A DNA stretch of 64,000 nucleotides from Mesodorylaimus sp. YZB2_4 (lineage: Eukaryota > Nematoda > Enoplea > Dorylaimida > Dorylaimidae). The DNA is taken from positions 159,563 to 223,562 of the forward strand of contig JASANH010001208.1 in assembly GCA_030248295.1 (NCBI GenBank), written 5' to 3'. The position numbers and the translations under genes were made by a program. The notes beneath the pieces were generated by a model that was not told where the DNA came from, made no database searches, and saw nothing but the letters and a program-made list of their open reading frames with translations. Shown piece after piece: positions 283 through 57,200 of this stretch (within the stretch, counting starts at the first letter, position 1; each line of letters starts with the position of its first letter).

Positions 283-1077
283 ATGTTGTTGTATCAAATT
301 TATATACCGGTGAAAGAGTCCTACCGTTTGGTGTTGTGTTATTTCAAATATTTTGTAAAAATTTTGCTTGATCATATGAAACCCGTACTGGGGTGCATAT
401 CACGCGTGCATTGAAGTCTGCTGCAGCAAATTTTTTTATGAGCAAATAAATGCAATTGCCCGTCAACCCGCCGCGTTGATGTTTCAGCCACAAGTGAAGT
501 CCAGGACATCTGTGTCGCCGTAATTACATTATTTCTTAAACAGTCTGTTGTCACAGACGGAAACTTTCACTCCAGCCGATGCACCTAGCGGCCATCAATG
601 GTTTTGGATGGCTAGCCCACTGCCGCTGCAAAACAAAACACGCTCACGATCAGGGGGAAAGGTGCTCAGTGTTTGCTGTATTTCGCAAAGACCTGTCAAA
701 GAGCAGAAAAACTTATTCAGGGTCTGACCAGCTCGTTGAAATGTGTTCAGTCCTCCATAAAAGCGGCTCCTTTGATCGTGGCACATGCACCGCTGAACCA
801 GTGCGCGTGGCAGGCATGCATGATCGATTTGCAATTGTACTAAATAAATAAATTAAAAACAAGAATAGTATTTTCTGTCAGTTCTGAATACTCAGTGTAA
901 ACAATGAGCTGTCGATGACTTAAATGATCCAAGCAAATATGCAAACTAGATCTAGGAACTCTCCAGCAAAAGTAGCTTATAAACCAGCTTCTAGGAAAAA
1001 ACCAGCTTGAAAGCTAGAAGCTAGGAACGATTCCAGCATTTTGTCAGAGTAGAAGACTTGCTAAGGAGTGTGAATTC
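283..1077. other. Intergenic: 3' UTR of the left gene and 5' flank of BAG2
   Basis: No convincing gene. A 90-codon open frame at 579-851 (+) is opposed by one of similar length on the other strand and ends in an AT-rich AATAAATAAA tract at about 841-851, which could be the polyadenylation signal of the left-edge gene. Around 950-1035 a short AGCTAGAAGCTAGGAA-like motif recurs imperfectly just upstream of the BAG2 start. Confidence 0.4.
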
Positions 1078-3313
1078 ATGGAGGCCATGGGTGAGAGAGT
1101 GATTGCGATGCTGGACGAGATCGAGAGACGGGTTGAAAATTTGCGTGAAACTGGTGTCATGATGGAGCAAGAGAAGGAAAGTTTGATGGAGATGATTCAT
1201 ACGGTGCAGGTGAACAAAGACATGCTACGACTCTCTCAAAGTAAGGGACGTTAAGTTAGGATAAGGCGGATCGGATTGATTATGAGATCACCTTGAGATC
1301 TCATTCAATGGCAACTGCCTGGAACTATTCCAAGAGAGCTCAATACGAGGCACATGCGGGGCGCTCTTAGCACTGGTAGGCAATTGTTAGCTATAGAATT
1401 TTTGTGCGGCCTGTTCCAAATTAATTTTGACTGATTCATTCGTCATTCGACTGGTAATTCCCGTGGTGCCGGCTCCTTTCCCGCCCGAAGCACATGGGTT
1501 TTATTCTTCCTCTTAATCTTGTCTCAAATCTGATCCATTTCCTCTTCTTAATTTGCAGGCGAAAAAGAAGATTTAGAAGCCACCTCGAATCGACTTCTAA
1601 CCAGATGCAAGACAGTGGAAGTGAATGTGAGCACACCAAGAAATTATGATCAGGTATTTTTTGATCAAGCGAGATTGCTGTGGGTTACTTGACAGTCAGT
1701 ATTTCAGGAACGATCATTGAAGGCGGTCTATGAACAAATCGAGGAGCTGATCATAAAACTGCAGGAAGATATTGGAAGTTCAAGGCAGGTGAGGTTTCTG
1801 GATTGAGCTACACGTCTAGTCTCGACCTGGCGCAACGTACTCTTAGGTAGAGTACGTTTTCATGGCCCTCCTTAGCCCCAAAATTCACCATGTAGCGAGC
1901 CACACACATGCACATACGAGGTGTATGTGTGTGGCTCGCACACATACGAGGCTTGACTCAGACATGAAAAATCGAGCAAAATGTTTTTACCAATCGCAAA
2001 CATTTGATTTGCAGTATCACCGGACCCTGCCCTGGTCTTTACCCGGACCTTGCACTATTTGCCCCGCTTAGCCTCTTTGGGCCTGGAGATCGAAAGGATT
2101 TTTTCAAAATAGTCCAGCTTTGTTTTTTCAAATAATTTTGTTACACAGTCTCTCTTCATCGTGGAAAGATTCTGGTGTGCGAACTGTGATAACGAACGTT
2201 AACTAATAAGTGAAAATTATTACTTCGAATGTGCTGGAGATATAAAATATTGAGGGGTGCGCGGAAAATCAGATTGCCCCATACTTCTAGGCAGACTTTA
2301 TGCTCGAATTTCCTTGGAATGGCCGAAAATGCTGTGCTTTCTTTGAGAGACTAAATACCTACCAGCGCCAAAATGTATGGCAAGATTCCACGCCACCTCA
2401 CCCCCTACCCCAAAATTACATAAGCCTGAGCCCAAATAACCAAATACCCCATTCCAAATTTCAAATCCAAATTTTAAATGCCCTATTTATCATACAGTCG
2501 GGCTTTTCCCGCTCCTAAGCCTGAACAAAGAGCATGGTATTCAGATCGGTCTTTTCCGTAACTTAAAATTAGGCCTTTTGTTTTTAAACTCCTAATCAAA
2601 TAAATCAAATAAAAAACTCCTAATCATAAACCCTGATCGATTTTTCGGCTATCGGAGATTGGTTGACTGTGCAGTACTCACGCTCATGCTTTACACATCA
2701 CCAACGCGTATGTGCGCTCGAGTGTGAAGGAATACTTTTTACAAAAAATGATCCACCTGGCCGCGAGTCGAACTATAGCCTGTAATTTGCTCACCTGGCA
2801 TCAAAGGCAGATATCTCCTAAGCCCGAGGCCGAGCCTGGTCAAGCAAGCACATAATGCAGCCTGCCTTATTCAGCTATATTTTTGTCGAATAATCTATCT
2901 GCATCAAAAGTGCTTGTGCTCCTCACCAACCAGGAGCAATCAGGGATCATGTAGGACTCGGTATTCTTCCTGTACAATTATCTAAAATGGCCCGCTGCGG
3001 CAGCAAAAGAAGCTGAATGGGGACTTACAGTAGCTGTACTCGTACACCACAAAATGCGGGCGCTAATAGCAAAAATGATAAGTTTCCAGCGTGCGCAAGC
3101 GGCTCCTCTTTCACTTCCTTTCTCTTTCAGGTGTGCAGCCGTTACCTGAACGCCTGCAATCCCGATTCGCCCGAGGGTCCGATTGACCAACGTTTTCAAT
3201 CAGTCCTGATTGGCTGCACCGCAGATGATCAAAAGAAGATTCGTCATCGATTGGAGCAAGTATCTCAAATCATTGATCGAGCTGATAGAATAGTAGCCCA
3301 GGCCTTTCAATAA
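1078..3313 (+). CDS. BAG2: BAG family molecular chaperone regulator 2
   Basis: Spliced from four exons: 1078-1240, 1559-1653, 1708-1788 and 3131-3313, all with GT-AG borders and consistent phases, giving 173 residues. BAG2 binds the Hsp70/Hsc70 nucleotide-binding domain, promotes nucleotide exchange and inhibits the CHIP ubiquitin ligase in the cytosol. Exon 1 carries the N-terminal coiled coil (RVIAMLDEIERRVENLRE, then EQEKESLMEMIH), nearly identical in pattern to vertebrate BAG2. Exon 2 has the NRLLTRCKTVEVNVST segment. The last exon carries the BNB/BAG2 domain core (GPIDQRFQSVLIGCTADDQK). The ATG at 1078 gives a protein slightly shorter than human BAG2 (211 aa), lacking its variable N-terminal extension; a second Met lies three codons on. 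The third intron (1342 nt) holds a SINE-like relic. AATAAA at 3391-3396 is the likely polyadenylation signal. The gene converges on L2HGDH, with an LTR retrotransposon between them. Confidence 0.94.
2685..2830 (-). repeat. tRNA-derived SINE-like repeat, family A, in BAG2 intron 3
   Basis: On the minus strand there is a Pol III B-box-like GTTCGACTCGCGGCC followed by about 90 bp that matches a segment at about 23735-23860 on the plus strand. Both copies share GTTCGACTCGCGGCC, then ATCATTTT, then a CTCGAGCGC motif, then a GCGTT-GGTG-GTG block. Similarity also reaches about 40 bp upstream of the B box. Two dispersed copies sharing a tRNA-like promoter element and a common body fit a SINE; the ends were not delimited. 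Confidence 0.5.
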
Positions 3314-3506: not shown

Positions 3507-3651
3507 AAAACAGATACCTAGTAGTAATTTTGAAATTCCCGCCGAGCTTCCGTTTTAGCGTTTTTTGGATCGATGTATGGGAATGAAAGCATTTGATTTT
3601 TCTTAACATATGTAATACTCATACAGTTCTCTTGCTCTTGCCTTTCCCTTG

Positions 3652-3850
3652 TGTCAGGGTTAAGTTTGTATATGCCGCGTGGATATCATGTAGTGTAGTG
3701 TGCGTTATTGTAAAGCTTGCTCGCCAGGGCTACGGCCAGAGCAGGCGAGCTGTGTAGAGTACAGAGGACCGTAATATAATTCTCGTCTAGTGCGGTTGGT
3801 CTCGAGATTACTCTTCTCCACACGCGGTCACGTCGGACAGCAACGTGACA
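3652..3850 (+). repeat. 5' LTR
   Basis: 199 bp, starts TGTCAGGG, ends AACGTGACA, with a 5-bp terminal inverted repeat TGTCA/TGACA. It matches 9997-10195 with four substitutions, all in the first half. It should contain the element promoter and polyadenylation signals, but I could not assign a TATA box with confidence. Confidence 0.96.
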
Positions 3851-4296
3851 TTTCTGGCGAGCTTGGCAGGAGGAGAGGAGTCGGTGGAGAAGAGTGGCGG
3901 ATTGGTATATATACCTGTAAGTGGGGTTGATTCGGTCTTGGGTCGTAGTACGGGAGCTTGTCCTTGGATTGGGACGGCGATATTTGGGCAGCCGCTTCGT
4001 TCCGCTTGTGCTTCCTGGATTGGTTGCACTGGAAGCGGACTTTGAGAGTTTCGTGCTGTTTGTGCTTCCTGGATTGGTTGCACTGGAGACGCACGTTGGG
4101 AATTTCGTTTGAGTGCCTCGTGTGCTCTGGAGACGAATTCCACGTTCGTTTGCGTTACCTGGATTGGTTCGCTGGAGACGAAGCTTACTCTCACTTGTGG
4201 AATCGTTGAGTACCTGGATCGGTTCTCTGAAGCGAATTCGATCAGTAGCTCGGAAAGTTGCCGCGTGGACTCACGCGCAGAGACTTTGGGGTGAGC
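3851..4296 (+). other. Retrotransposon leader: primer-binding region and tandem repeats
   Basis: The first bases after the LTR include TGGCGAGCTTGGCAGG at about 3855, a candidate tRNA primer-binding site offset a few bases from the LTR; I cannot name the tRNA. From about 4000 to 4240 a unit of about 57 bp containing CCTGGATTGGTT recurs imperfectly four or five times (near 4013, 4070, 4159 and 4214). The gag ATG follows at 4297. Confidence 0.6.
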
Positions 4297-5853
4297 ATGG
4301 CTGCGAAGTTTAGTATCACGTATGCGGAATTGCGTGAAAAGTTACCTCCTTGGATGAAGAAAGAGGTGTTGAAGGCCTATTGCGATGCCAACAACGTGAA
4401 GGTCTCAGCCACATCAACGAAACAGGATATGGTAGAGGAACTTGGCAAGGCGATTTCTGCCGGATGGGACCAAGGTGCTGCGCATGGAGGTAGCAGCGGG
4501 GAAAGTACTTGGAAAATGTCCATGATCGATTTCGGTCCGTACATGAATGAAAGTACGAGTAAAAAAACCGCCGAAAGGAGACGGAGAGTATACGGGAGCG
4601 GACGATGCGTCGAGCAAGGCGACGCCTGTGACGAATCCGCAACGGCCACGCCTGGACCAAGGCGATGGTGGCACGGGTATCGCTCAGATGATGATGCAGC
4701 AACAGGCCATGTTCTTCGAGTTCCTGCAGAAACAACAGCAGAGGCAGGATGAGGACAGGCGCCGCGAAGCTGAGGAGCGGAAACGCCAGGAAGAAAGGCA
4801 ACTAGAAGACAGGCAGAGAGAGGCTGAGGAACGGAAACGGCAGGAAGAGAGGCAATTGGAGCAGCATAAGATAATGCTGGAACAGATGCAGGCTTTGACT
4901 GTCTTGATTCGCTCACCGCCACAGGCTGGTAGTACGCAGCCCAGTCAAACGTCTGTAGTGTCCCCGTCTGTGAATCTGCCAGGTCTAAAGATCGCAGTGT
5001 TTTCGGGCGACGTTGAAAAGATAGACCCATTCGAGTGGTTGGAGACTTTCCGTACATATAGTACGTTAGGACGGTGGTCCGTCGCTTAAGTCATGGAGGG
5101 TATCAAAGTGTATTTGACGGGCGAGGCTTTAGCCAAGTGGAACGAGTTGACTGATACGGATAAGAATTCTTGGAAGCGTGCAACGGCCGTTTGGCTGGAA
5201 AAGTTGCTCGGAGAGAAAAGGTCGATTTTCAGAGTGCAGCTAGCTGCCCTGAAGCAGGAAAATCGTTCAGTCGCCTGGTATACACAAGAATTCTTGCGAC
5301 TGGCAAAGTTGGCCTCATTTACGGCCACAAACCAGACGGTTCGGGATAATGACTGGCCTATATGCGAAATGTATGTCGCAGGATTGCGCAACACGATTCA
5401 GAAAGAGGTCCGCAGAGATAACCCGGATAGGTTATCAGTGGCGAAAGCGATCGCGGAAAGAGCCGAGTCATGCTCTACTCTGTGTGGCGAGATAGTGGTG
5501 AAGCACGAAATGATAGCCAACTCTCGCATGTCGGAGGAGCCAGGAATGGTAGTACAAACGACAGGGCCTGGTACCGGTGCGGACAGTTGGGTCACATAGC
5601 ACGAGAATGTGTGGATCGTAGAAACGATTACGCGGTCAGCACAGGTCTCGTAGTAGTTATCCGCAGCGAGATGGCCGCAGGGAGTTCCAAAGCAGTAGAG
5701 GACGACATAGTCCAGGTCGCAGAGACCAGTACGGTCGAGGACGACATTTTTCGTCTCGGGAAAATAGTAGCAACAGTTACAGTCGTGGTAACTATCAGAA
5801 TGATCGCGGACGGTCGGTTGACCGGAGGGGAAAGTCAATTCTGTTTCGGATGA
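4297..5853 (+). pseudogene. gag: gag-like polyprotein gene of the Ty3/Gypsy element, disrupted
   Basis: The reading frame starting MAAKFSITY at 4297 gives the N-terminal part. After an A7 run at 4561-4567 coding continues in the +1 frame with a Gln/Glu/Arg-rich coiled-coil segment (about 4700-4870) and a Gag-like retrotransposon domain (WLETFRTYS near 5035). A TAA at 5087-5089 interrupts that domain, which resumes in the same frame to 5599. A CCHC zinc-knuckle-like sequence lies in another frame at about 5569-5613, but its first Cys is Trp (WYRCGQLGHIARECV). An Arg/Gly/Ser-rich stretch follows in yet another frame. Gag normally forms the capsid and binds genomic RNA. The stop, frame changes and lost zinc ligand indicate a decayed copy. 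The A7 shift could alternatively be a slippage site. Confidence 0.8.
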
Positions 5854-5950: not shown

Positions 5951-8900
5951 GTGCTGGGCATGCACAAGGATGCGCCGCATAGAGGATCGGCGCCAGTTTC
6001 GCAGGAGGCGAATGCAGTAAAATGGAAAATTGGTCAGTTGAGTTACGTGTTATGCCAGGTTGATGGGCAGGACGTACCCATGATGCTGAATAGTGGCGCT
6101 ACCGTAACCCTGATAAGCAAGGCAGTGGCGAAGAAAATCATACCGCGTAAAGATTGGAGGCCTAGTTCGGCTAGCCCGAAAGGTTTAGGTGGAGACGGCT
6201 CGCTAGAAATCGAGGCAGAGGTTGGAGTTGACCTCAAGGTTGGTTCGATAGTCGAACGACACGTAGTGCTGATATCGAGCACGATGGGTGGAATACCGGC
6301 ATCTTGGGCACAGATTTTACAGGCCCATGCCATAGCGAGCGGTACAGGTATTGTGCAGATTTGTCGCACGCTCAGGAAAAGCAGGGGCTCGTGGGAGTAG
6401 TGTTGAACTCTGAGTGCTCTGTGTATGTGTGCGCCGACGTTGTGATTCCGGCGAGGAGCGAAATAATAATTGAGGCTGAGCTGCGAGCGCTGCCCAATGA
6501 GGTATCTGTTGACCAAGGGTGGTTGGAACCCAGTACGAACGTAGGAGCGGAAAAGAGGCTATTTGTGGCTCGTTCGTTGGTTAAACTGAAGGGAGACGGC
6601 CTCGTGCCAGTGATGGTAGCTAATACAGCTACGGACGATAAGGTATTGCATAAAAATACGCGAATCGGCCAGTTCACGGTTATCGATAAGGGTGACCAAG
6701 TGGTGGCAGCTTGCGGTTCTGCCGAGGGTAAACCGGTGTCCATTATGGACCCAATCGCGAAGATCGATTGGAGGGAGTCAGAGTTGACTGAGGATCAACG
6801 GAAACGCGTTGTTAGCGTATTACGTCAATACGAGCATGAAGGTGATATCGGAAAGACGACGTTGCTACAACACAAAATCGTGTTGACAGGGGCGCCTCCG
6901 CCCAAGATGAGAGCTCGGAGAATACCAGAGGCAGTGAAGCCAGAGGTTGAGCGGCAATTGAAGGTGATGCAAACGCACGGTTGGATCAAACCGTCGTGCA
7001 GCCCAGTATCGGCTCCGCTAGTTATAGTGCCAAAGAAGGATGGAGGCACTAGGATTTGTATCGACTTCCGGGCATTGAATGCTGTAACAAAGAAGGACTT
7101 GTACCCCATGCCACGCGTAGACGAAGCGTTGGATGCATTGGGAGGTGCGAAGTGGTTCACAAGTTTGGACCTTCAGAGTGGGTACTGGCAGGTACCACTG
7201 AGCCCAGAGTCACAAGAATTGACGGCATTTTCAGCGCCAGGTGGACAATTCGAGTTCACGGTAATGCCATTTGGGTTAGTGAATGCGGGAGCGACATGTG
7301 AACGACTACTGGAGATGGTCCTATCGGGACTGCAGTGGGATCACTGTTTGGTGTATATCGATGATATACTGATCTACAGTAAAACGTTTGACGATCACTT
7401 GCGGCATATCGGCAATGTGTTTGATCGGTTGGTGAAAGCGGGCTTGAAGGTTAAGCCATCAAAATGTCACTTCGCGAGGGCTGAAGTACCTTTCCTGGGT
7501 CATGTGGTCTCGAAGGTTGGGATCAACATGGACGAGAAGAAGGTTGCAGCAGTGCGGAAGTTTCCAGGCCCACAGAACATCAAGGATGTGTGGCGGTTCC
7601 TGGGTATGTGCAACTTCTATCGGGATTTCATCCCTCGATTTGCCATGATAGCGGCTCCGTTGTACAAACTGCTATGCAAAGATCAGAGCTTCGTCTGGGA
7701 TACCCAGTGCGAGGACGCGTTTATGGCGTTAAAGGAGATGTTGGTGTCCAAACCGATCTTGCGGTTCCCTGATTTCAAAAGGCAGTTCATACTGCTGACA
7801 GATGCGTCGAATGTCGGCATCGGGGCAGTGCTGTATCAACAGCATGGGAACGACAAATGGGTCGTAGCATACGCGTCAAGGACGCTAACGAAAGCTGAAA
7901 AGAATTATTCAGCGCTGGAGAAGGAATGGTTAGCGGTTGTTTAATATGTTAAGCACTTTCGACCATACCTCTATGGGGCAAAGTTCCTGTTGAGGACAGA
8001 CCATCAACCGCTGAAGTGGCTGATGGCACACAAGGAACCCACAGGTCGGATTGCACGGTGGGTATACCAGTTGTCGGAATACACGTTTGATGTAGAGCAT
8101 GTGCCGGGGAAGACCAATGTTGTGGCAGATGCACTTTCTCGAAGCCCGATGTGCATGGTTTGCCCAGTGGCTGTAGAGACAGTCGGACAAAAAGCAGTGG
8201 AGTTGTCGGACCAGACACTTAAGGACGCACAGAGGGCAGATCAGTTCTGTCGGGCGCTAATTGACTATTTGGAACAAAGAATGTTGCCCAAAGATCCGCG
8301 GGATGCGAGGCGGCTAAAAAAGCTTGCGCAGAGCTTTAGTCTTTCGGAAATGGGCGTATTGCTACATTTTCCATTGGGGCAAGAACGGAGAAAAGAGGAT
8401 TGGATACAGATGGTAGTTCCATTATCCTTGCAGCGCTTGGTGTTTGACGCACTGCATGGTGATGCCATGGCAGGTCATTTGGGTTTCACGAAGACCTTTG
8501 TCAAGCTGAGGCAACGGTTCTTTTGGCCAGGCATGTACAAGGACACTTTTCGCTGGTGTCAAAGTTGTTTGCCATGTGCGAAGAACAAATCGTATGGTCA
8601 AACGGGTCGGGCACCCTTGAAACCACTGTGTGTGGAGAATCCGTTCGAGTTGGTGGCGATCGATGCCACGGGTCCATTCCCTACAGATAGGGATGGCAGT
8701 AAATACGTCGTAATCGTGAGCGACTACGTGACGAAGTACATCGAGGCATTCGCAGTGCCAGATATCAAGGCAGCGACGGTAGCCCAGATCTTGGTAGACA
8801 AGATCATATGTCGGTGGGGAGCGCCACGACGATTGCTGTCGGACAGAGGGGCTAATTTTACCTCAGAGTTGGTGCGGGGCGTGTGCGAGACATTGCGCAT

Positions 8901-9840
8901 CAAACGATCCCTGACGGTAGCGTACAGACCTCAGACTGATGGTCAGGTGGAGAGAGTGAATCGCGTGTTTCGCGATATGCTGAGAATGTACGTAGACCAA
9001 GATCACCAGGATAATTGGAGTGGTTTCGTTCCGTTTGCCCGATTCGCGTACAGTACGTCAGTCCATGAAGCGACGGGTGAGACTCCGTTCTTTCTGATGC
9101 ATGGTTTTGATGCACGGTTGGTGATCGATACGGGTATCTCGAGTTCAGCTAACAAATTTGGCAGCGCGATCGAATATCGCGAGAACGTGGTGCAGCAGCT
9201 CGAGCGAGCTCGGAGGTTAGCTTATGAGAGCATAGAACGAGTGCAAGAACAGCGTAAGGAACGTTGGGATAAGAATACGAAACTGGAGAAGGAGTTTCAG
9301 GCTGGTGATATGGTGATGTATAAGCGAATGCATACACCGGCAGGCTTATCATCGAAGCTGTTGGGCTCCTGGACTGGACCCTATCGTGTCACGCAAGTGA
9401 TATCGGCTCACAACTTGATTATCCGTCCGCAAGGAGGATTAGTTGGCGAAGAGAAGCGTGTTCACGTAGAACAGGTGAAGCGGTATGTGCCAGAGGTGGA
9501 TAGGCCACGCAAACCAAGACTGCTGAAGGTCGGTGATGCAGTGTGGGCCAAAATGAAGTACCACCCATATTTGCCAGCACGTATAGTGGATGAAACGGAA
9601 TTCCCGGATAAGAGGCCTATAAAACCAAATTGGGTTCGTGTTCACTTCTTCGGCGAGAAGAAGTACGGACTAGTCGAGCGCGATAACATCTTCGACTACA
9701 GGCAGCATAAGGAGGTGTTCGCCTCCAAGGCGGCAGGTTTGCCTCGTGCGATGCGAGACGCGGAGAGGTACTTGGAGGAGGAGAAGGACACGCGCAGTCG
9801 TGTGGCTTTGGTGAAGGAGAGACGGAAGTGGGTGCAATAG
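5951..9840 (+). pseudogene. pol: pol-like polyprotein gene: protease, reverse transcriptase, RNase H, integrase, PWWP-like domain
   Basis: The aspartic protease lies in the 5951-6400 frame; its catalytic motif reads LNSGAT, so the usual Asp is Asn (codon 6089-6091). The frame from 6304 to 7944 carries RT, with fingers and palm motifs (RICIDFRALN; YIDD at 7354-7365) and the start of RNase H (TDAS). A lone TAA at 7942-7944 interrupts RNase H. Coding resumes in the same frame (LLRTDHQPLKWL) to a TAG at 9838. The integrase has an HHCC zinc finger (about 8458-8590), a D-D-E catalytic core (IDATGPF, LSDRGANF, Glu at about 8950) and a GPY/F-like region (SWTGPYRV). It then ends in a PWWP-like domain at about 9520-9790 (GDAVWAKMKYHPYLPARIV, then VRVHFFG and an acidic/basic helix). 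The catalytic substitution and stop suggest loss of function in this copy. Confidence 0.92.
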
Positions 9841-9996: not shown

Positions 9997-10195
9997 TGTC
10001 AGGGTTAAGTTTGTATCTGCCGCGTGGATATCATGTAGTGTAGTGTTCGTTATTGGAAAGCTTGCTCGCCAGGGCTACGGCCAGAGCAGGCGGGCTGTGT
10101 AGAGTACAGAGGACCGTAATATAATTCTCGTCTAGTGCGGTTGGTCTCGAGATTACTCTTCTCCACACGCGGTCACGTCGGACAGCAACGTGACA
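9997..10195 (+). repeat. 3' LTR
   Basis: 199 bp, same length and ends as the 5' LTR, with four mismatches. The next four bases (CTTG, 10196-10199) repeat those before the 5' LTR. Confidence 0.96.
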
Positions 10196-10199
10196 CTTG

Positions 10200-10636: not shown

Positions 10637-11981
10637 CTACTGCCCGCCCAGTTGGAAAGTTTCTTTCGCTTTATCAGCCACCATTTCAGCAATGGCCAAA
10701 CTGGATGTCGCGGCAGGACTGGGTGCATTGCGCACATGCAACAACCGTCGTCCAAGTTCTCCCACACCAGAATCAAATACAAAATCATCAACCAAATTTC
10801 CGCTCGCGTCCAATGCTTGCGCGCGAACACCAGCTGGTCCTCTGCAATAGGCGCAACAAACCTGCTTAAATGTTTACACGGAAGTCTCCCCAGGGACATA
10901 AAATTTCATCTGGGCTCCAGACGGGGAACATTATTCGAGGCGGATGTCAGCACATTTTTTAACCAGTTTGCGAAATCCTGAACAAGTATTTCCTGACGCT
11001 CTGCAGACACCCTTCAGACCAAAATCAACTTATTTGCGAGTATGATCGATTTCAGCTTCCCAAAGGAAAACCACAGCAAGCCTGAGCTTCAAGTTTCAAG
11101 TTAGATCCCAGGGGGTATATTCGGGGGGAAGACTTCAGAATAAACGCAGGGTTTACATACGGCCCTTTCGATAAAATAGCTTACCTCACGACATCTTCCA
11201 CTTTCAATTCGGGTACGAATCGCTGCAGCAGTTTGACTTGGGCCCGAATATTCAAGCTTCTGTACATTTCGCCCACACCGTACACCGTGTACTTTAGCAT
11301 CAGTTTTTGCATACCTCTGAAAAACAAACCTTAACTGCAGTATGTTACTAATCGTAAGGCATACTGTACATTATGTTGCATAGGACGCACTGTACTGGAC
11401 AGTATGTGCAGTCTGTGATCTCATGCTAGTCTGGGTACTGTCGTAATGATACCCCATTCGATGTTGTCTGGTGCGCAGTGGATGCTGGTCTCAACCGCCA
11501 ACTGCAGTTTCGCTCGGAACTGACAAAAATAGGATTCAGATACGTGAGTACTGTGTGCACTAGTGGAGGAGGGAATCGGAGGTAGGCGGCAAGGGTTACA
11601 TTACTTGGGTCGCAATTGATACTTGCACTGTACAGGCGTCACCACTCGGAGCGATGACCAGCAGTCGTCTGGGATGACTTATCTTTATAACCAGTCTCGC
11701 CTTGTTTTTTGAAGGTGCGACCCAGACGGTGCGATTTGATGCCCAGAGTAAGTGCGAAGCACCGCCAGACTTCCTTTATGAGCAACGTACTTCGTGCTTC
11801 GCAAGCTAGTCTGGTGCTACTTTGCAAGGAGTTGGACACAGTATATGTTGTCGCAAAAGACGTCACTTCCGACTTTCACCGAAATTCATGTGGCCTTGCC
11901 AAAGTGTCTGAGCATCACCAGCCAGGTGTGCGCACACCAAGCAATATACTCACGCGGAGCGCGAAGCGAGGAATATAAAAG

Positions 11982-12057
<76 letters not shown>

Positions 12058-15000
12058 AAAAAAAAAAAATCAGTGACCCATTTTTGTTCGCCGACAAGTG
12101 GTTTCAATTTTTTAAATATACATAATTTTTAGCGTCAAGAGATACTGGAAAGTGGCGCCTTCGGAGACAATAAGAATGTTCAGTGTCCAATCCTTGCGCG
12201 CGCGCCCTGGTTCTATTCAGTGTGTTTTGAAGTCGTAAAGTCTTCTCCCAGTCGCGTTGTTTCACTGGTCGTAGCCCCAGACCACCAATCAATCAGGGAG
12301 CGTAAAGCACCTGTTTCACCACGACTCCAGGCTCCGATCTGGAGACTCCAACTCCGGACTGGAGAGCTAAAAGTGTTTCACCATTCTGCAGTCAGACAGA
12401 ATTTTGGACTCCGGCGCCCGGAGTCCTTCAGGTGGCAATGGAGCTTCGTTGCGTTTCACCAAAAGTTACAGTAAGACACTTCATGGTGTGCGGGCTCCAG
12501 AAAATGGCTCCAATTCGGAGCAAAAACCTTGGAGTCTCGCGTGACTCTAAAACACATTTTAAACCCCTTTTCTGCATAAGCCTAAGCGATGGAAATGAAG
12601 TTCATTGATTATTAATTTATTATCTGACGATTGGGCGAACTACGAGCTTTGGATTTTACGATAACTTGAATTTACAAGAGGATGACAGAGCCTGATAGCA
12701 TGCTGCAACTACGACCAGTGTCTGCGTATCTACCTACAGTGTGCGTCAAGGATCGGTTTCGACGTGAACTGGGGGCGATTTTGAAAAGAATTTTGAGAAA
12801 CGGGATGAGGTTTTACGAGAAAGAACCAGATTATATTTTTCTGATTGTGAAGGTGATATAGTGTGATGGTAATCAGTTTTACCCTGCTGTCTTAAAAATC
12901 AAACTGCCAATGCCACAATCTATGTAGACACGTTTCTCATGTGTTCATTCTTATTTTGTTTGGGGCACCCTAGCCTTTGTTCTACAAGTCTTATCGTTAG
13001 TTTCCATTTAGCAGGGCACGCAATATCATAAAACTACAGCATGTTCAACCACGAAATATGAATCATAGTCGTTCTCTTATATCTTCCTTGTCATCAACCA
13101 TCCCGCCGCGCTGCAACTGCTGTCGTGGCCTACGTCCACATTTAGCAGGGTCATGCGATAGTATTGTAATGTTATCACGCTATTTTAAACTCATTTTTAA
13201 AAATTAAAAAATTTGTAATAATTATATTATGTGTGAATTGCTAAAGTATTGTCATTTCCTTCAAATCGAAATTAGTGAGCAAGATCAAAAACAAAATTAC
13301 CAAAGACATCAATGGCATCTTTCAGTTTGCCTCTCTCCAGCATACAAAGGGGAGTAGAGTGCGACTAAACCTGCACATCTTGCTCCTTGGTGTCAATTTT
13401 CCGCTCCAGCAATCAGACTCCTTTTCGGAGCACGTGGTGAAACGCTCTTTTTCCGCTCCTTCGCGGATCTTGGACTCCAGACTCCACAGGTTTCGCGGCC
13501 GGAGTCAGGGAGTCGTGGTAAACAGGCTGTAGTGTCATCTAAGGGGGTCAAGCAATGTCCCTTTACACTATGTACTGCACTTTCAACTATTCATCATTCA
13601 CTTTACACTTTCTTGCGCAGCCCTGAGGGAGGGAAGAACCGCATTTTTCAGCACTCGATCATAAAAGAATGCAGCCGAATACCCTCCATACCTGAACGAA
13701 ATCGACTCCAACAAATCCCGTATGCTGATATCAGTGTAAGTGTATCCCTCTCGCTTGAAAGCCAGCACAGCATTCGGACCCAGCCAAACATCGCCATTCA
13801 TCCGAGGCGTGAAATGAACACCCAAAAATGGGAATCGGGGATCCGGCACAGGATAAATGTTAGCTCTGGCCAAATATCGTTTCTCCGGTTTCAATAATAG
13901 ATATTCGCCTCTGAACGGCACGATCTTGGGTAACTTCGAGCAACCCGACAATGTCGCCACTCGATCGGAGTACAGACCAGTACAGGCTATAGAATATTTG
14001 CAATGCACAGGTGCCTAAAAAACCGTTTTTTGGAAAATCAGTGGCAGAAACATCCAGCCAACGAACATGACTCTTATCCTTGCTAATCAAAGCCAGCGGA
14101 TACGCCTTGTCTGAGTTGATTTTAAACTCTGTCACTTCGAAATTCTTGAAAATCTTTCCACCACGTTTCACGAAATCATCGCCAAAAGACTGAGTGGCAA
14201 GACCCCAGTCTACGATGCCAGTATGAGGTGAAAAGATTGCCTTGGCGCCCTAGGTATTTAAAATGATCATAGATTTGGTCATTCAAAGATGGTGCTAACT
14301 TACTCGGCAGTGGGGTTCGATTTCTTTTATTTTCGACCCATCGATTACTTGGAGGTCAGGCACGCCGTTGGCTATACCTCTTTGATAGAGAGTATCCAGT
14401 CGACCAACTTCTTCCTGGTCGACGGCCACGATAAGCTAAAAGGGGCCATGCGTCAGGGCTCAGAGCGATGGGGACTAAAACTTGACGCCACGATACTCCT
14501 GTGCCGGATAAGAGGTGGCTCCATCCAGAAGGCATGAGCTACCTCGCTACACATATGAGGCGACAGGATTTCAGATGCTTCTGTCCGGAAAAAATTCAGA
14601 CTGGCAAGGTAGTTCTACCGTAGGTTAGGCGCCAGGATGGTGCTGTTTAACAGGATTGCGTACGAGTCCAGTGGCTGATAGCCTGATCATACACGCCCGC
14701 TGTAAGACCCTAACTCGCAAGTCGGATGGTAAACAGGTTTACTGGATCTTATGTTTCCCCTTACACCACCTCGGACATGATCCTGGCCAAATTTTACTGG
14801 GCATTCTGTTCAATCTCAATGCTCGAATCCAGTGTTTGGCTTCACCTGCTAAACACACTAACGTTATTGTAAATATCCTCTTAGTATGTTTTTGCCAGAA
14901 AGTTCATCATATCCACCAGTTGAGGTCAGTTCCACCAGGTTGAGGTTGAGGTTGAGGTCCACCAGTTTGCACCCATACAAAGCGAGCGGATTCAGGTTCC

Positions 15001-16031
15001 TACGCAGGGGCGTGAGAGAAAGGTGGCCGCCATGCTGCGCGTCGTAACCAGCTGTTGGATAATTGTTAGCTCGTCTGATGGCTGGGTGCATGGCGGATTG
15101 CACATGGATAGCCGCCAGGAGCATGGCAGGGCTGTTTGGTCAGCGTGGGATAAGGAAATGATAGAAACAAGAAGCCTCGGTCACAAGTAGAGCAGTTAGG
15201 ACAACGCCTCTTGGGGAGGTGCTTCTAGTGGAGGACGCACAGGAGTACGCTGCTGCGTGTGCTGGTCCCCGCACACCCTTCCTTACAAGATTTGACTGCT
15301 GGCCGGCTGGCCAAACGAGCTTCGGCCCACAAAAATTAAAACGCAGGGTAGGCAGCGCAGGTCAAAGAACCCCTACGTACACATTGTGCAGGTCAGGCTA
15401 GGCGACTGGGTGCAAGGGCACTTCAAAAAAAAAACCGTAGCTTTAAGCGAGGAGAATGGGTCTATGAGTCGATGCATGGGGTCGGAGCACCAGAACTAAA
15501 GGACTCCCGATGTTTTGGGGGCAGTCCAAATCATACGTACAGTAGAGATGCCTGCCAGTCCAATCCAGTTTGTGATAAGAGAAGTTTCCAAAGCTTTACA
15601 CGATGCCGACCACAAGCCCCTACCTTGCCACATTTCTTGTAGGGAATATTATGTTCATCGAAATATTTGTACGATAATTTCAGCCCCCGGACGCAAAGTT
15701 TCGCCTTCAGGGAGCCCGGAGCGTAGTAAATGCCCGCATGGATGACACCGCTATTATTGCCACTTTGATGGGCAGCTTAAAAAAGAAGTTATCAGAAATG
15801 CAAGAAGAATCTGTCATGATTTTTAGTCTTCATAAAGGATCAAACTGGAAGAGCTTGCAATGTCGAGGAGTCGTAAACATTTATTTGACCAATCACATAC
15901 CGAGTTTGTCCTCTTTTTCAACCAAAGCCAACTTCAAGCTAGGATATCGAATGAGCAATTCTCGTGCAGTTGCACAACCAACGATACCACCACCTATGAT
16001 CACAATATCGAATTCGTCATTTTTGCTCGCT
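10637..16031 (-). CDS. L2HGDH: L-2-hydroxyglutarate dehydrogenase, mitochondrial (first exon not identified)
   Basis: FAD-dependent mitochondrial enzyme oxidising L-2-hydroxyglutarate to 2-oxoglutarate. Coding exons in order on the minus strand are 16031-15901, 15775-15624, 14435-14304, 14249-14067, 14014-13692, 11316-11185 and 10841-10637, with consistent phases and GT-AG borders. The 14067/14014 junction is the least certain, because its 52-nt intron has a weak GTTCGT donor. Together they give about 418 residues. Seen in order: the FAD Rossmann motif ([11 protein letters not shown]), the [12 protein letters not shown] active-site region, [28 protein letters not shown] with [38 protein letters not shown], and the C-terminal [11 protein letters not shown] and [15 protein letters not shown]. 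All match the family closely. The N-terminal exon with start codon and mitochondrial presequence was not found. The 2375-nt sixth intron holds an A-tract and a TIR element; the 1188-nt second intron is otherwise unremarkable. Confidence 0.93.
11982..12069 (+). repeat. 88-bp poly-A tract in an L2HGDH intron
   Basis: Almost pure A with a single T at 12056, preceded by GAATATAAAAG. It may be the tail of a retroposed sequence or a simple repeat; no recognisable SINE body was identified upstream. Its length may be imprecise in the assembly. Confidence 0.8.
12310..13526. mobile_element. Non-autonomous TIR element in an L2HGDH intron
   Basis: The ends are inverted: CCTGTTTCACCACGACTCC at 12310-12328 against GGAGTCGTGGTAAACAGG at 13509-13526 (one base missing). 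Subterminal GTTTCACC/GGTGAAAC motifs and GACTCC/GGAGTC clusters recur inside both ends. No transposase frame is visible in the 1.2 kb, and no clear target duplication was identified. Confidence 0.55.
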
Positions 16032-17828
16032 CTGAAACAACAAAGACTAGGTTTCCATTTTGCATTTTTGCAAAAAACGTATTTACTGTCTTGAATTCCT
16101 AAATTTGACCTTGTGCAGAAAAATCAAAACAATTCATACATTCAAAATGACAAAAGAGTGAAATAACGAAATCGATTCTTATCTAGCTCTGTCTCACCAA
16201 CAACGCATAGAAACGACACAGGAACTGGGAGCTTACTGTGCAGATAAGAGCCGTTGTGATGGCCGAATGAGCGCAGTTCTTGCACTCATCGTTCTCAAGC
16301 AATTGGAAAACATATTTTAGTGCCCTTTTCCGAAAATGAGGTACAATAATTGATGAAGACCCTATTAAGCAATTGACTGCGCAGCGGCAAAACAAAAACA
16401 TGAAAACGTGTAGAATGGTCAATTCGACGGCTAGCGCTTGCAGCAGACAATGTTTTGCTAAGAGTTATTTAAACACAGCACCGACGGTGACACGGTGCGT
16501 TGAAGCATAGTTAGAAAGGAGAAGGATGTACGTTCTGTCTTACAGTCTAACCTTAGTCCTTTCATTGCACTTTAAATAGTTGCAAAACTTTCATTCCTTG
16601 ACAGGAGTCGCTTCTACTAATCAGGCTAAGTCAGTGCTTAGGATAAGCATGTGCTTGGTCAGCTAATTAATAGTACAGACTCACAATCAGCAGGGGCCAG
16701 TTTCACAGCGCGATCCTAATTTCAGGACGGGTACGAATTCAGGTCACTAGCTGTGCACTAAAATGTACCCACCTGATGGCTTGACGTCTCCCAACCAGGA
16801 GAGAATCGATTACTCTCCACCACTCGCCATGGTCTAACAGGCGCGAGGGTTACATGCCTGATTATGTAACGAAGTCTGTGCTGTAGTACTCACGATCAGC
16901 CGCTCTGAACGGAGCAGTCGGTGGTCTCATCTTCTCTCTGACTGCATGTTTCCGCAATGTATTATCTATTTTCTTTGGGAATATACACGCCGTCGCCCAT
17001 CGTGCGAACCAGAGCTGGCAGCACACTTGGATCGCTGGCCCCTGATCCGAACCACTTATCGCACAGCGGAAACAATTGTCTGCTCCTGAGCACGGTTAGA
17101 TTGTTTACTAAACAAGATATGCGCATACGCGTGCACTACGCAGATTTTGAAAATGGCGGGCTTTGTTATAAGTGGTTAGGTCGGCATTGCGTGGCGATCC
17201 AAGTGTTGCTGCCAGCCTTGAATCGCCCATGGTCCCGCGCGTACATTCCCATTTCCGCGAGTGTCCCGATTTAGCGAGTGCTTTTTTACTTGCCACCCAA
17301 ACACGGCCGCCGCGCCTCGAGCGCTCCTACTGTAACCGCTAGTTTAGTTCATCCGTAAATTTTCAACGTGTGCAGAAATTTTCTTTGCTCTGTTGCTACA
17401 ATATGCAATCAATAAGCAATAAGATCAAGCGTTAAATTAGACGATATCATAAATGGTAAAGTAAGAAAAGACTGAGGAAACTGGCAATATTACATGGACC
17501 ATACGTGTAAGCGTACAAAGCTTGTCACCAGGGTGTCAGTAACACACCGTTCCATGCTATATTTTGATCAGCCTGATTCTCCTGAACTTTGATACCCCCT
17601 AACAAGAAAGATATGTGCAATAAATACGCTTTCACTTGTGGGCTAAAAATTCTTCCAATGACGAATGGGCCGTGATGAATAAACCTTGCTTTTGCATCCA
17701 TAATTCGTTCATCCACTCCAGAGTATATTGGATCCCTTGGCCGAGGCTGTGCACCACCGAGTAGCTGATTGATCCTCAGCTAAAGACCTAAACAACTCTA
17801 TCAGAGTCGAATAGAACTAGTTACCCAT
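16032..17828. other. Intergenic between L2HGDH and the MULE relic
   Basis: The missing L2HGDH first exon should lie in or beyond this stretch. A minus-strand open frame at 16183-16422 with a hydrophobic N-terminus is one weak candidate. An open frame at 17525-17716 (-) may be a 3' exon of the MULE gene but shows no recognisable motif. Confidence 0.3.
16973..17253. repeat. TIR-like repeat, GGGAATATACACGC family (longer copy)
   Basis: Opens with CTTTGGGAATATACACGC and closes with GCGCGTACATTCCCATTT, the imperfect inverse. It shares the terminal motif with 3450-3506. It is 281 bp with no coding content, consistent with a MITE. Confidence 0.4.
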
Positions 17829-36566: not shown

Positions 36567-39432
36567 TTATATAATAGTGCAAAGTTTAGAAGTCCGCTTG
36601 GTCATTGATAACTTTTGATGTGCAGTCGTAGCCTTGGCTTTATCCATTTCGTCGTCACTTTTTGTGCCCTCAACCGCATTAGATCCTCCGATTGGCAGTC
36701 CTTTTTCTTGTAGGAGTCTCGATTGCACTTGATACAAGACTATGCGATAAGTGCCGACCACAGAATTTTTGGCCCCGCGTTGAGCAGCATCCTTCATCAT
36801 GGAGGGGGAAATACCATATTTGTGCAAGGTAGTCCATACTTCTTTGACAGCTGGTTTGTGACTCAGTTCATTCTCGCTGGGGACCACACTATACTTTTCG
36901 TAGGCAGATGGGAACTGCGCTGTGGTCAGCCAATAATGCTCTTGCATTTCGAACAGGGATGACCTGTCATTCGGTTCCATTTTCATGGCGCCATTGATCA
37001 AATCCTGACAAAGTTGGGACACGTAATCGGGAATCTCGTATTGTCCAATTAATATCAGTTTCTTTAATTCGGAGACAGTATCGCCTCGAAAGGGGGTGTT
37101 GCCAGTGACCATGAAATAGAGGAGGACACCCAAGGCCCAGATGTCCACATATTTTCCGTGATAGCTTTTGTCTCGAAACAGTTCGGGAGCAGCATAGGGA
37201 GGGCTGCCGCAAAATGTGTCCAGGGTGTCGCCCTGTTTTACAGCCACGCTGAAACCAAAATCGCCCAGTTTCACCCATTTGGGGGCAGCAAAAAAGACGT
37301 TTTCAGCTTTAATGTCACGATGAATTATGCCGATCTGATGCTAAAATGCAATAAGTGTTTGTGAGATAATTCCTTGGTGTGGATGGGCAGGTCCACCCGG
37401 AACTGTCCAGAAGGGATGTAGAGAGCGCCAGGGGTGAAAACGGAAATGAATAAGGTCTATTTTCTGATAATAAGGAAAGTGGGCAGCAGAGGGAAGAGTG
37501 CCACCGCCAAATTAGTGGGCACATCTAAAAACGTGATTTTCTAAACTGTGACATTAATTTGGTTGCCATTAAGCTTCCGGTTTATTTTAGAAATTTTTCC
37601 CCATACTGAAACGGCCAGCTCACCAGGGCCCTCGTGAGCAAACTCTTCATAAAAAAATACGGTCTATTTCCATTCACGATTAGAGTTTTATCTTGAGTGG
37701 AAATCGTGCATCTGGTATTTGGTGCAACGTCAACAGCGGCCACTGAACCAGCAGAAATCAACGGTCAGCAGGTGAGGAGCTAAGGAAGAATATTGGAGGA
37801 AGTGCTTGATCCGCGTAAAACTTTTTAACAGGCTCCCTAAATCGCTTAAAAATTCTGGAATGCGCCTATGAGGCAATAAAGGCTCCAGATTTGGCCCCCT
37901 CTATAAAGGCCCCAGAAATTTTTGCTAAGTCGAGGAAGGTGAGGTTATCTGAATCGCAGAATTTTTTCCTCACTGTAAAACATATATATAAGGGTTTTCC
38001 TTATTTTTTAACTATTTGTTGATTGGCCCCCATGCCGCCCCAGTTTCCCACCGGCCTTCTAGCCCGTTTTGCCTATAGGCCAGCAGTCCTGATATGTTAA
38101 GCGAGGTGACCAGCTCTCACGGCAGCTTCCATCTTGTGTCTCCAATAGGCGCACCCACACGAGGGGATGCCAATGCCAGCGTCAGGATGATACTGGGCGA
38201 GAAGGGAGGGACGTTCCTGGCTGGTGTTCGAGAACAGTTTCCTGATTCCGTTCAGCATCCGCCACCTGACGGTATCGGGTCAGTCGCCCAGAGCCAAGCA
38301 CCTAACCTAAAATCGCCGTCGAAGAGCGATTCCCACTCCGAGAACGGGCTTACTAAGCTGCCGTCCCCAGCCAGAACAGAGCTGCGGTCAGGGTTGCTGG
38401 CCTAATTAATGCAGGACCAACGCCTTAACCAACTGAGCCACCGCGTCTCCAGATATATTAAGGGTGCGATCCTCGTTTTTAGGAATAGAGAACTATAGAC
38501 ATAAGGGCTGCTATGTATGAAATTTTAGCTGTTGCTCTCACAGATCCAGAAAATCCTGGATGTGCATCCAGAGCAGGTTCAATTCCTGCTAGGCTCAAAT
38601 TTTTTTCAAGTGTCATTGTAGCTGGTAGTTCCAGTTACAAAAGTCTGCATCGAACCTTAATCAGCGGCTGCGTGCAAACATGCAAAGCTTATTGCATTTT
38701 ACCATGTGAACAACAGCGGCCAGAACTTGCGCGAAAATTAATCTGGACTCGCTCTCGCTCAATTTGGTATTATTGACAACGTGGTCGTATAATTCCCCAC
38801 CGCCAGCATACTCGAGAATCAAGTGCAATTTGGTCAGTGTTTCCACAACCTAAAAATAGGGTCCTTTTATGGTAGCTTGACAGCTTCTCACACAAGGCAC
38901 ACAAAAGCCAGCTTATCACAGAGGAAATGATGGCAAATGGTACCTCAAACAATCGAATAATGTTAGGATGATGCGTTTCTTCCATATTTTTTACTTCGCG
39001 CTCAAGTAATCGTTGAGCTTTTTGGTCCATTCTTGATTTTTCTATGATTTTGATTGCTACACGCTCTGAAAATCGAAAACAGTGCTCTCTGATCGAGCTT
39101 TTATCTGTGACTGTAAAATTCGAAACCGGAGCCCAATGCTTACCTTTCGTTAAAATATGCGCACCGACTTTGACTTTGGAAAAATTACCCGATCCTAATT
39201 CTTCACCTAATTTATAAAATCCTATTCTCTTTCCCAAAGCCACTTCTCGTTGATAATTGGCATCGCTAGCTAACAAATCCAATACTCGAGTATAAGCTGA
39301 GATTTTCAAGTCATCTTTTGTAAGCGTAATCTTCGACTCAGCTGTATTTCTTGATGGAACCATCGACTGCCTGTATCCAGTTCTGCCAGATGGAAGCTGG
39401 GGTTGCGACTGAGCAGTAATAGAGGAGACCAT
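36567..39432 (-). CDS. NIM1K: Serine/threonine protein kinase NIM1 with C-terminal CaaX box
   Basis: Four coding exons on the minus strand: 39432-39144, 39065-38944, 38849-38703 and 37340-36567. Phases are consistent and the product is 443 residues (human NIM1 436). It is an AMPK-related kinase of the LKB1-activated family. Motifs in order: LGKRIGFYKLGEELGSGNFS (Gly-rich loop), VAIKII (catalytic Lys), HHPNIIRLFE, LHLILEYAGGGEL, IHRDIKAEN (catalytic loop), GDFGFS (Mg-binding), an activation segment DTFC-GSPPYAAPELF with the Thr expected to be the LKB1 target, and YVDIWALGVLLYFMVTG. The C-terminus ends TSKLCTII, a CaaX prenylation box. Vertebrate NIM1 ends similarly, so membrane anchoring by a lipid is probably conserved. 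The third intron (1362 nt) carries a SINE. The gene converges on SLC35A3 with about 490 bp between stop codons. Confidence 0.95.
38095..38455 (-). mobile_element. tRNA-derived SINE, family C, second copy, in a NIM1K intron
   Basis: On the minus strand it begins GGAGACGCGGTGGCTCAG, then TTGGTTAAGGCG, a clear tRNA-like 5' arm with A box. The body matches 20037-20400, including GTTCTCGAACACCAG and GTGAGAGCTGGTCACCTC. It has the same orientation as the NIM1K transcript. Confidence 0.7.
38518..38605 (+). repeat. tRNA-like sequence
   Basis: The T arm is perfect (GCAGG-TTCAATT-CCTGC, about 38573-38590), and an ATCCAG/CTGGAT hairpin precedes it. The 5' and 3' ends do not pair as an acceptor stem, so a functional tRNA is unlikely. 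Confidence 0.3.
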
Positions 39433-53982: not shown

Positions 53983-54230
53983 TTAATTGCGCTTCGCGCG
54001 CAGTTTATGGCCTTGCTGCCTCGCGGCAGCCGGCTTGGTCCTTGGTAGCGAAACGTATGTGTACCGGCGTCCGGTCATCATGGTACTGTAGGCTCTGAAC
54101 GGTTGGACATTGGTGTAGGAGCTGGAGGGCGGGGACTGGTCCGCAGCTTGGACACCCATTGTGTAAGCTCGTCGGGAAGCTAAGCTGTAGACTGGCAATA
54201 GTTCACTAACATCAATCGGTAGAGACTGAA
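53983..54230 (-). CDS. Possible terminal exon, Ser/Tyr/Arg-rich, next to the satellite array
   Basis: A minus-strand frame ending at 53983 reads AYTMGVQAADQSPPSSSYTN and on to YTYVSLPRTKPAAARQQ, plausible protein composition with a basic C-terminus. It runs into the satellite at its 5' side and no acceptor or start was defined. It may be a relic or chance. Confidence 0.25.
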
Positions 54231-57200
54231 CACACTGTGACAAAATGCACACTACACTTTACGCTGGCACTTACCCCAATTCATGCCGCTGTCAGGCGTT
54301 TGATCGGGCAACTTGAATTTCCCGGAAGTTGGTCCAATTCAAGACGATGTCTCCGCTTCATCGTCGCCGCCGCAGTGGTTCACGGCCACTGGCGCATGCG
54401 TGCTAGCGAGCATTGCACGCAACATCACGCAGCTCGCCACTAACGCGGGCGAACGACTTTGAGCGGAACCTGGAAAGAACGCACTGTCACCGAATGCACA
54501 CTACACTTTACACTGCCACTTACCTCGATTCATGCCGCTGTCAGGCGTTTGATCAGGCGGCTTGAATTTGTCGAACTTTCGTCCAATTCACGACGATGTC
54601 TCCACTTCATCGTCACCGCCGCAGTAGTTCACGGCCAATGGCGCATGCGTGCTAGCCGAGCATTGCACGCAGCACCACGCAGCTCGCCACTAACGAGGGC
54701 AGACGACACTGAGCAGCACCTGAAAAGAACGCACTGGCACCAAATGCACACTACACTTTACACTGGCACTTACCTCGATTCATGCCGCTGTCAGGCGTTT
54801 GATGAGGCGGATTCAATTTGTCGAACTTCCGTCCAATTCACGACGATGTCTCCACTTCATCGTCACCGCCGCAGTGGTTCACGGCCACTGGCGCATGCGT
54901 GCTAGCCGAGCATTGCACGCAGCACCACGCAGCTCGCCACTAACGAGGGCAGACGACACTGAGCAGCACCTGAGAAGAACGCACTGTCACCAAATGCACA
55001 CTACACTTTACACTGGCACTCACCTCGATTCATGCCGCTGTCAGGCGTTTGATCGGGCGACTTGAATTTGTCGAATTTTCATCCAATTCACGACGATGTC
55101 TCCACTTCATCGTCACCGCCGCAGTGGTTCACGGCCACTGGCGCATGCGTGCTAGCCGAGCATTGCACGCAGCACCACGAAGCTCGCCACTAACGAGGGC
55201 AGACGACACTGAGCAGCACCTGAAAAAAACGCACTGTCACGAAATGCACACTACACTTTACACTGGCACTCACCTCGATTCATGCCGCTGTCAGGCGTTT
55301 GATGAGGCGGATTCAATTTGTCGAACTTTCGTCCAATTCACGACGATGTCTCCACTTCATCGTCACCGCCGCAGTGGTTCACGGCCACTGGCGCATGCGT
55401 GCTAGCCGAGCATTGCACGCAGCACCACGCAGCTCGCCACTAACGAGGGCAGACGACACTGAGCAGCACCTGAAAAAAACGCACTGTCACCAAATGCACA
55501 CTACACTTTACACTGGCACTCACCTCGATTCATGCCGCTGTCAGGCGTTTGATCGGGCGACTTGAACTTGTCGAATTTTCATCCAATTCACGACGATGTC
55601 TCCACTTCATCGTCACCGCCGCAGTGGTTCACGGCCACTGGCGCATGCGTGCTAGCCGAGCATTGCACGCAGCACCACGCAGCTCGCCACTAACGAGGGC
55701 AGACGACACTGAGCAGCACCTGAAAAAAACACACTGTGACAAAATGCACACTACACTTTACGCTGGCACTTACCCCAATTCATGCCGCTGTCAGGCGTTT
55801 GATCGGGCAACTTGAATTTCCTGGAAGTTGGTCCAATTCAAGACGATGTCTCCACTTCATCGTCGCCGCCGCAGTGGTTCACGGCCACTGGCGCATGCGT
55901 GCTAGCGAGCATTGCACGCAACATCACGCAGCTCGCCACTAACGAGGGCAGACGACACTGAGCAGCACCTGAAAAGAACGCACTGGCACCAAATGCACAC
56001 TACACTTTACACTGCCACTTACCTCGATTCATGCCGCTGTCACGCGTTTGATCAGGCGGCTTGAATTTGTCGAACTTTCGTCCAATTCACGACGATGTCT
56101 CCACTTCATCGTCACCGCCGCAGTAGTTCACGGCCACTGGCGCATGCGTGCTAGCCGAGCATTGCACGCAGCACCACGCAGCTCGCCACTAACGAGGGCA
56201 GACGACACTGAGCAGCACCTGAAAAAAACGCACTGTCACCAAATGCACACTACACTTTACACTGGCACTTACCTCGATTCATGCCGCTGTCAGGCGTTTG
56301 ATGAGGCGGATTGAATTTGTCGAACTTCCGTCCAATTCACGACGATGTCTCCACTTCATCGTCACCGCCGCAGTGGTTCACGGCCACTGGCGCATGCGTG
56401 CTAGCCGAGCATTGCACGCAGCACCACGCAGCTCGCCACTAACGAGGGCAGACGACACTGAGCAGCACCTGAAAAGAACGCACTGGCACCAAATGCACAC
56501 TACACTTTACACTGCCACTTACCTCGATTCATGCCGCTGTCACGCGTTTGATCAGGCGGCTTGAATTTGTCGAACTTTCGTCCAATTCACGACGATGTCT
56601 CCACTTCATCGTCACCGCCGCAGTGGTTCACGGCCACTGGCGCATGCGTGCTAGCCGAGCATTGCACGCAGCACCACGCAGCTCGCCACTAACGAGGGCA
56701 GACGACACTGAGCAGCACCTGAAAAGAACGCACTGTCACCAAATGCACACTACACTTTACACTGGCACTTACCTCGATTCATGCCGCTGTCAGGCGTTTG
56801 ATCGGGCGGCTTGAATTTGTCGAACTTTCGTCCAATTCACGACGATGTCTCCACTTCATCGTCACCGCCGCAGTGGTTCACGGCCACTGGCGCATGCGTG
56901 CTAGCCGAGCATTGCACGCAGCACCACGCAGCTCGCCACTAACGAGGGCAGACGACACTGAGCAGCACCTGAAAAGAACGCACTGTCACCAAATGCACAC
57001 TACACTTTACACTGGCACTTACCTCGATTCATGCCGCTGTCAGGCGTTTGATCGGGCGGCTTGAATTTGTCGAACTTTCGTCCAATTCACGACGATGTCT
57101 CCACTTCATCGTCACCGCCGCAGTGGTTCACGGCCACTGGCGCATGCGTGCTAGCCGAGCATTGCACGCAGCACCACGCAGCTCGCCACTAACGAGGGCA

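Follow-up and report, generated by a model that had tools for sequence, protein, structure and literature searches.

Can a Ty3/Gypsy retrotransposon carry its own reader of active chromatin? The question is raised by an element in a 64,000-nucleotide stretch of DNA from the nematode Mesodorylaimus sp. YZB2_4 (contig JASANH010001208.1, positions 159,563 to 223,562; hereafter the window), in which an earlier sequence-only reading took the end of the integrase frame for a PWWP domain. In other proteins, PWWP domains are readers of active-gene chromatin marks. Gypsy elements with chromodomain tails are believed to be directed to heterochromatin; a PWWP tail would represent the contrary strategy. 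We find that the PWWP at the integrase end is real, recurrent and conserved, and we give a probability of roughly 70% to the reading that a Ty3/Gypsy integrase captured this domain, whose most likely role is to anchor the integration complex to nucleosomes.

A PWWP domain closes the integrase frame

The tail of the window integrase matches the PWWP family (PF00855) with 53.6 bits, against a curated cut-off of 25.6, and a single-sequence structure model shows the five-stranded PWWP barrel followed by C-terminal helices. The profile search and the structure prediction, both proposed as checks by the sequence-only reading, thereby bear out its claim of a PWWP domain at the C-terminus of a Gypsy integrase. 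As it had also read, the domain lies in the same frame behind the GPY/F motif, and the two are separate; the loss of a core tryptophan that it described is likewise there, with the window leucine aligned at the place of LEDGF W21. No chromodomain (PF00385) was matched in window 8860-9837 even at E-values up to 10, and the element lacks the C-terminal integrase chromodomain that defines chromoviruses. It is otherwise a Ty3/Gypsy long terminal repeat (LTR) retrotransposon by its LTRs, its gag-protease-reverse transcriptase-RNase H-integrase order and its GPY/F motif (Table 1).

PWWP tails recur in at least nine families

In the genome assembly (145 Mb, 1067 contigs), the window PWWP has 100 matches; the 29 listed loci besides the window are 59-98% identical to it, some of them partial. 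PF00855 itself has at least 146 matches, host genes among them, in the 150 candidates scored out of 173. Reading frames around these matches reveal at least nine families with PWWP integrase tails, represented by A (window), B (L044), C (L048), D (L064), E (L038), F/G (L072, L069), H (L088), I/J (L089, L090) and K (L091). Pfam scans found H2C2, rve and PWWP together in nine of ten family open reading frames (ORFs); the fetched piece of the tenth (L092) has PWWP only and no integrase core, with a GPY-like stretch upstream by eye. The window integrase tail is 28-38% identical to those of the nine other full-core representatives, and the B, C and D tails are 70-75% alike among themselves.

To measure the association, we took the 150 best-scored H2C2 sites of 691 candidates and a search span of 0.6-2 kb. 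A PWWP lies downstream on the same strand of 48 of these sites, always at 0.92-1.07 kb; both controls, opposite strand downstream and same strand upstream, gave 0/150. Recurrence, H2C2-PWWP spacing and differing 3′ flanks (see below) rule out a chance fusion or an assembly artefact. The tail is shared by many elements and is not the accident of one copy that the sequence-only reading had named as its own refutation.

PWWP-tailed elements are mobile and conserve the domain

Behind the PWWP, most copies of B, C and D share 96-99.7% identity (exceptions: L054, 86%; L057, 91%), and their 3′ flanks differ in every case where the LTR end was reached. Most A copies have differing 3′ flanks too, except that L014 and L016 share a flank and that the flanks of L002 and L010 have 80% identity across 1.1 kb.

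We estimated the ratio of nonsynonymous to synonymous change (dN/dS) in the PWWP by Nei-Gojobori counts. The window and L017 give a dS of 0.62, a dN of 0.050 and a ratio of 0.08; the ratio is 0.08 for the window and L018, 0.04 for F/G and 0.10 for I/J. B/C also gives 0.08 at near-saturated dS, and dS is saturated for B/D, C/D, F/H and L028. By these counts, the PWWP is under purifying selection in most comparisons. I and J differ at 2-5% of bases in the first 300 codons of the compared pieces and at 26-37% from codon 450 on, PWWP included; this near-identical core and divergent end point to a possible exchange of the PWWP end between elements, in this one pair. The domain-level reading is thus solid, because the match is significant, the predicted fold is that of a PWWP, and the tail is recurrent and mostly kept by selection.

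The methyl-lysine cage and a proposed docking role

According to PMC3663649, the LEDGF cage consists of M15, Y18, W21 and F44; two of these, W21 and F44, also belong to the core, and binding is lost in W21A and F44A, perhaps through misfolding. We compared these places by eye in 13 PWWPs, F and G being nearly alike. W21 is kept in 11 of them and Phe stands at the F44 place in 12 (exception: H). Window A aligns with M, H, L and F at the four places and so lacks a LEDGF-type aromatic cage, to which other families come closer; it has Lys at both LEDGF DNA-contact places, K14 and K16, and its relatives L028 and L029 keep Trp at the W21 place. Judged from these residues, F and G would be the most plausible readers of methylated histone H3 lysine 36 (H3K36me), B-D plausible ones, and A and K doubtful ones.

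We propose that a host-type PWWP was acquired once or a few times as the last integrase domain, at the place of the chromoviral chromodomain, where it would dock the integration complex onto nucleosomes. Families with an intact cage would dock via methylated H3K36 plus nucleosomal DNA; the window subfamily, its cage Trp lost, would do so mainly via nucleosomal DNA or with an altered histone specificity. The docking, the histone mark and any effect on integration sites are inferred, and a targeting device would be the likeliest role of the domain; PWWP-tailed elements may thus carry their own guide to insertion sites. More tentative, and well short of even odds, is the fuller proposal of a Gypsy group whose PWWP tail reads H3K36me in cis and steers insertion to transcribed chromatin, with cage-poor offshoots retargeted.

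Weighing the alternatives

Several observations weigh against the docking and targeting reading. No PWWP was called downstream of 102 of the 150 scored H2C2 sites, so PWWP-less Gypsy elements probably coexist in the genome; some of these sites may be contig-end cuts or decayed copies. W21 is missing from window A and from K, which has Ala, and Phe or Tyr at the Y18 place occurs together with W21 only in F, G and H of the 13 PWWPs; the window copy has Leu at W21 and His at Y18, while LEDGF W21A fails to bind. PWWP dN/dS is higher for L011 (0.64, few changes), fragmentary L026 (0.38) and L025 (0.26). RVT_1 or DDE_3 matches of other transposons occur in at least four of the 17 3′ flanks of the A family (L009, L012, L014, L018; below the Pfam cut-off in three), a purely descriptive count that runs contrary to strict gene-body targeting. 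H3K36-methyl tethering is therefore weakened for the window subfamily, by these flanks and by the Leu and His in its cage. The PWWP might instead be mainly a nucleosome or DNA clamp that aids strand transfer or nuclear retention and makes no choice of histone mark. A and K have lost W21, yet the A PWWP has a dN/dS of 0.08 in its two best comparisons; the LEDGF PWWP depends on DNA contacts and has very weak affinity for a methylated peptide by itself (PMC3663649), and certain chromovirus chromodomains (CHD_II) that lack cage residues reportedly tether independently of histone marks (PMC5006619). We nevertheless regard such a clamp as the less likely reading, since W21 in 11 and Phe at F44 in 12 of the 13 PWWPs are hard to square with DNA binding alone, though both are also core residues.

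That the tail is a decaying, functionless captured fragment is very improbable: the window copy is itself broken, several A copies are partial or contain stops, and the three high ratios above would fit decay, but four inter-subfamily comparisons give a dN/dS of 0.04-0.10 and at least nine families carry such tails at 28-38% identity to that of the window. Nor do we give any real weight to a mere look-alike. Integrase SH3 tails, chromodomains and PWWPs have a barrel-like fold in common, chromodomain and PWWP both being ‘Royal’ folds; the PF00855 score far over the cut-off, the missing chromodomain match and the GPY/F motif elsewhere upstream contradict this, and the score and the predicted fold rule out fold mimicry. 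Far more open is whether the PWWP integrases of this genome stem from two or more separate captures, which we hold to be only somewhat less probable than a common origin. The PWWP rows of an integrase-core tree with 85 rows require 2-3 changes; two are required in a careful integrase tree, which places window A away from the other nine, and 1% of 200 bootstrap trees need one change. The nearest solved sequences also differ, being HDGF-family for A (HDGFL3 and LEDGF, besides DNMT3B) and D (LEDGF), and NSD2 for F. Against this, trees with all ten held together outscore free searches (+23.9 and +2.9; p-AU, from the approximately unbiased test, 0.859 and 0.563), and PWWP and integrase groupings concur for E-I-J and F-H; the short PWWP tree does not resolve B-C-D. 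The integrase tree does not reject a single clade.

Relatives outside this genome

A single query against a protein collection gave four matches. A profile of ten tails matched 407 proteins, and PWWP (PF00855) was flagged in none of the 120 listed among them; 75 of these outside relatives were rescanned, giving 24 with a chromodomain (PF00385) and none with PWWP. The C-terminal part of one B copy had no match in the protein collection, and viral contigs had none for the PWWP integrase. The protein-collection candidates were of limited length only, so full polyproteins may be missed, and eukaryote genome collections lay outside these searches. Elements related to the window copy, which the sequence-only reading proposed to look for in other invertebrates, are numerous within the same genome, and none of the 75 rescanned outside proteins has a PWWP. 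PF00385 has 70 matches in the genome, host genes and elements together.

Anatomy and surroundings of the window element

Table 1. Parts of the window element (window coordinates).
Feature	Position	Strand	Basis
Target site duplication (TSD), left, CTTG	3648..3651	.	read by eye
5′ LTR, TGTCA...TGACA, 199 bp	3652..3850	+	LTR comparison
Candidate primer-binding site TGGCGAGC...	3855..3872	+	by eye; no tRNA assigned, right end arbitrary
gag (PF03732, E 2.6e-7)	5093..5596	+	Pfam profile
gag zinc knuckle frame (PF00098, E 2.9e-5)	5470..5850	+	Pfam profile
Aspartic protease frame (PF13650, E 1.9e-6)	5951..6397	+	Pfam profile
Reverse transcriptase + RNase H (PF00078, E 8.2e-37; PF17919, E 4.6e-29)	6304..7941	+	Pfam profile
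Integrase zinc domain H2C2 (PF17921, E 3.9e-20)	8416..8592	+	Pfam profile
Integrase catalytic core rve (PF00665, E 4.1e-12)	8638..8931	+	Pfam profile
G-P-Y of GPY/F motif (WTGPYRV), integrase C-terminal domain	9376..9384	+	
PWWP domain (PF00855)	9532..9762	+	profile + fold model
Charged tail, PWWP frame continued, partly helical in model	9763..9837	+	stop 9838-9840
Polypurine tract-like GAGGGGGAGGTGAA	9983..9996	+	read by eye
3′ LTR, 199 bp	9997..10195	+	LTR comparison
TSD, right, CTTG	10196..10199	.	read by eye

The two LTRs differ by 4 mismatches in 199, and the TSD is weak taken alone because it is only 4 bp long. An in-frame stop (7942-7944) closes the reverse transcriptase/RNase H frame, and the window copy is therefore broken. 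A 54-bp direct repeat lies shortly 3′ of the 5′ LTR (3996-4103).

Two convergent genes, BAG2 (+) and L2HGDH (-), flank the element with their 3′ ends, the site being transcribed or near-transcribed DNA in this one case. In the BAG2-like gene (1018-3310, +), the last exon piece (3017-3310) matches BAG2 with an E-value of 2.8e-13, and the 1018-1251 piece matched no BAG2 chain. The L2HGDH-like gene (10640-16123, -) matches chain FI05204p of 8w75, which we take to be fly L2HGDH, at 10640-10873 (E 9.3e-24) and 13601-14014 (E 2.6e-42). Provided that these frames run to the coding stops, 334 bp separate the element from the BAG2 end and 437 bp from the L2HGDH end. Elsewhere, we extracted 23 flanks (17 A, 6 B), read the ORFs of 22 by eye and scanned nine ORFs from eight flanks by Pfam; other flanks may therefore hold unseen transposons. 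The L007 flank is BEL-like by eye, with no Pfam match. Targeting of tRNA genes, as in Skipper-2, was considered and rejected, with no tRNA in 55 loci or the window (ARAGORN, bacterial setting).

Contigs C58, C85, C334, C396 and C779 (L003, L004, L006, L005 and L020) stop at most about 12 bases from an A-family 3′ LTR end, probably because the assembly broke at the edges of repeats. At three places (C85:434471/437515, C267:122388/125610, C1033:1040/7133), two PWWP-element ends lie in opposite orientation at a distance of 3-6 kb; these are inverted insertions or assembly palindromes.

The window also holds a 250-bp satellite (54228-64000; 39 copies, 96% matches) that reaches its end, an 18/54-bp repeat (1-144), one frame of which encodes runs of DHCGCG, and a protein kinase domain (36567-39432, -) in two separated frames and therefore in an intron-bearing gene. 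In the assembly, a COX1 copy (L094, C73:253316-254668) is followed by a NAD4-like frame (by eye), and there are 14 further COX1 matches; these are likely nuclear mitochondrial copies. In L094, TGA stands for Trp, AGA/AGG for some expected Ser (RRYR vs RRYS), and three conserved Lys places are occupied by AAA, which fits the invertebrate mitochondrial code.

Comparison with known systems

To our knowledge, PWWP-guided integration is so far known only in trans, via LEDGF in lentiviruses. An arthropod retrotransposon family reportedly captured a methyl-CpG-binding domain (said to have been described by de Mendoza et al. in 2019); it likewise holds a host epigenetic reader, of a different kind. 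The sequence-only reading knew of no described PWWP-Gypsy family, and we found none in the open-access literature, Repbase and preprints lying outside the search; among the eleven open-access papers with both PWWP and Gypsy, no title or abstract opening names such an element. Passages on PWWP in PMC12344493, PMC12460157 and PMC11244446 deal with DNMT3 or other methyltransferases, and PMC6338049 names a chromodomain and a DnaQ-like exonuclease as accessory domains of LTR elements.

Gypsy integrases are already known to capture reader domains: those of Ectocarpus have chromodomain or Tudor tails, separately captured as here, with chromodomains and one Tudor domain and no mention of PWWP in the text (PMC12477816). 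Chromoviruses also have a host-type chromatin reader as the last integrase domain behind GPY/F, there a chromodomain and here a PWWP, with H3K36me the expected mark here instead of H3K9me. Skipper-1 and Skipper-2 show the same split into cage-intact and cage-poor reader tails, in chromodomains of social amoebae, with Skipper-2 inserting near tRNA genes (PMC5006619). With at least nine PWWP families in one genome, cages intact or broken, and many integrases without a PWWP call, the nematode elements offer a natural test of whether integration sites are set by the reader domain. The closest parallel is LEDGF/p75, whose PWWP links lentiviral integrase to H3K36me3 nucleosomes from a host protein in trans (PMC8149907, PMC3663649), whereas the PWWP here lies within the integrase frame; a tail that reads its mark in cis would naturally combine the roles of LEDGF and integrase in one protein.
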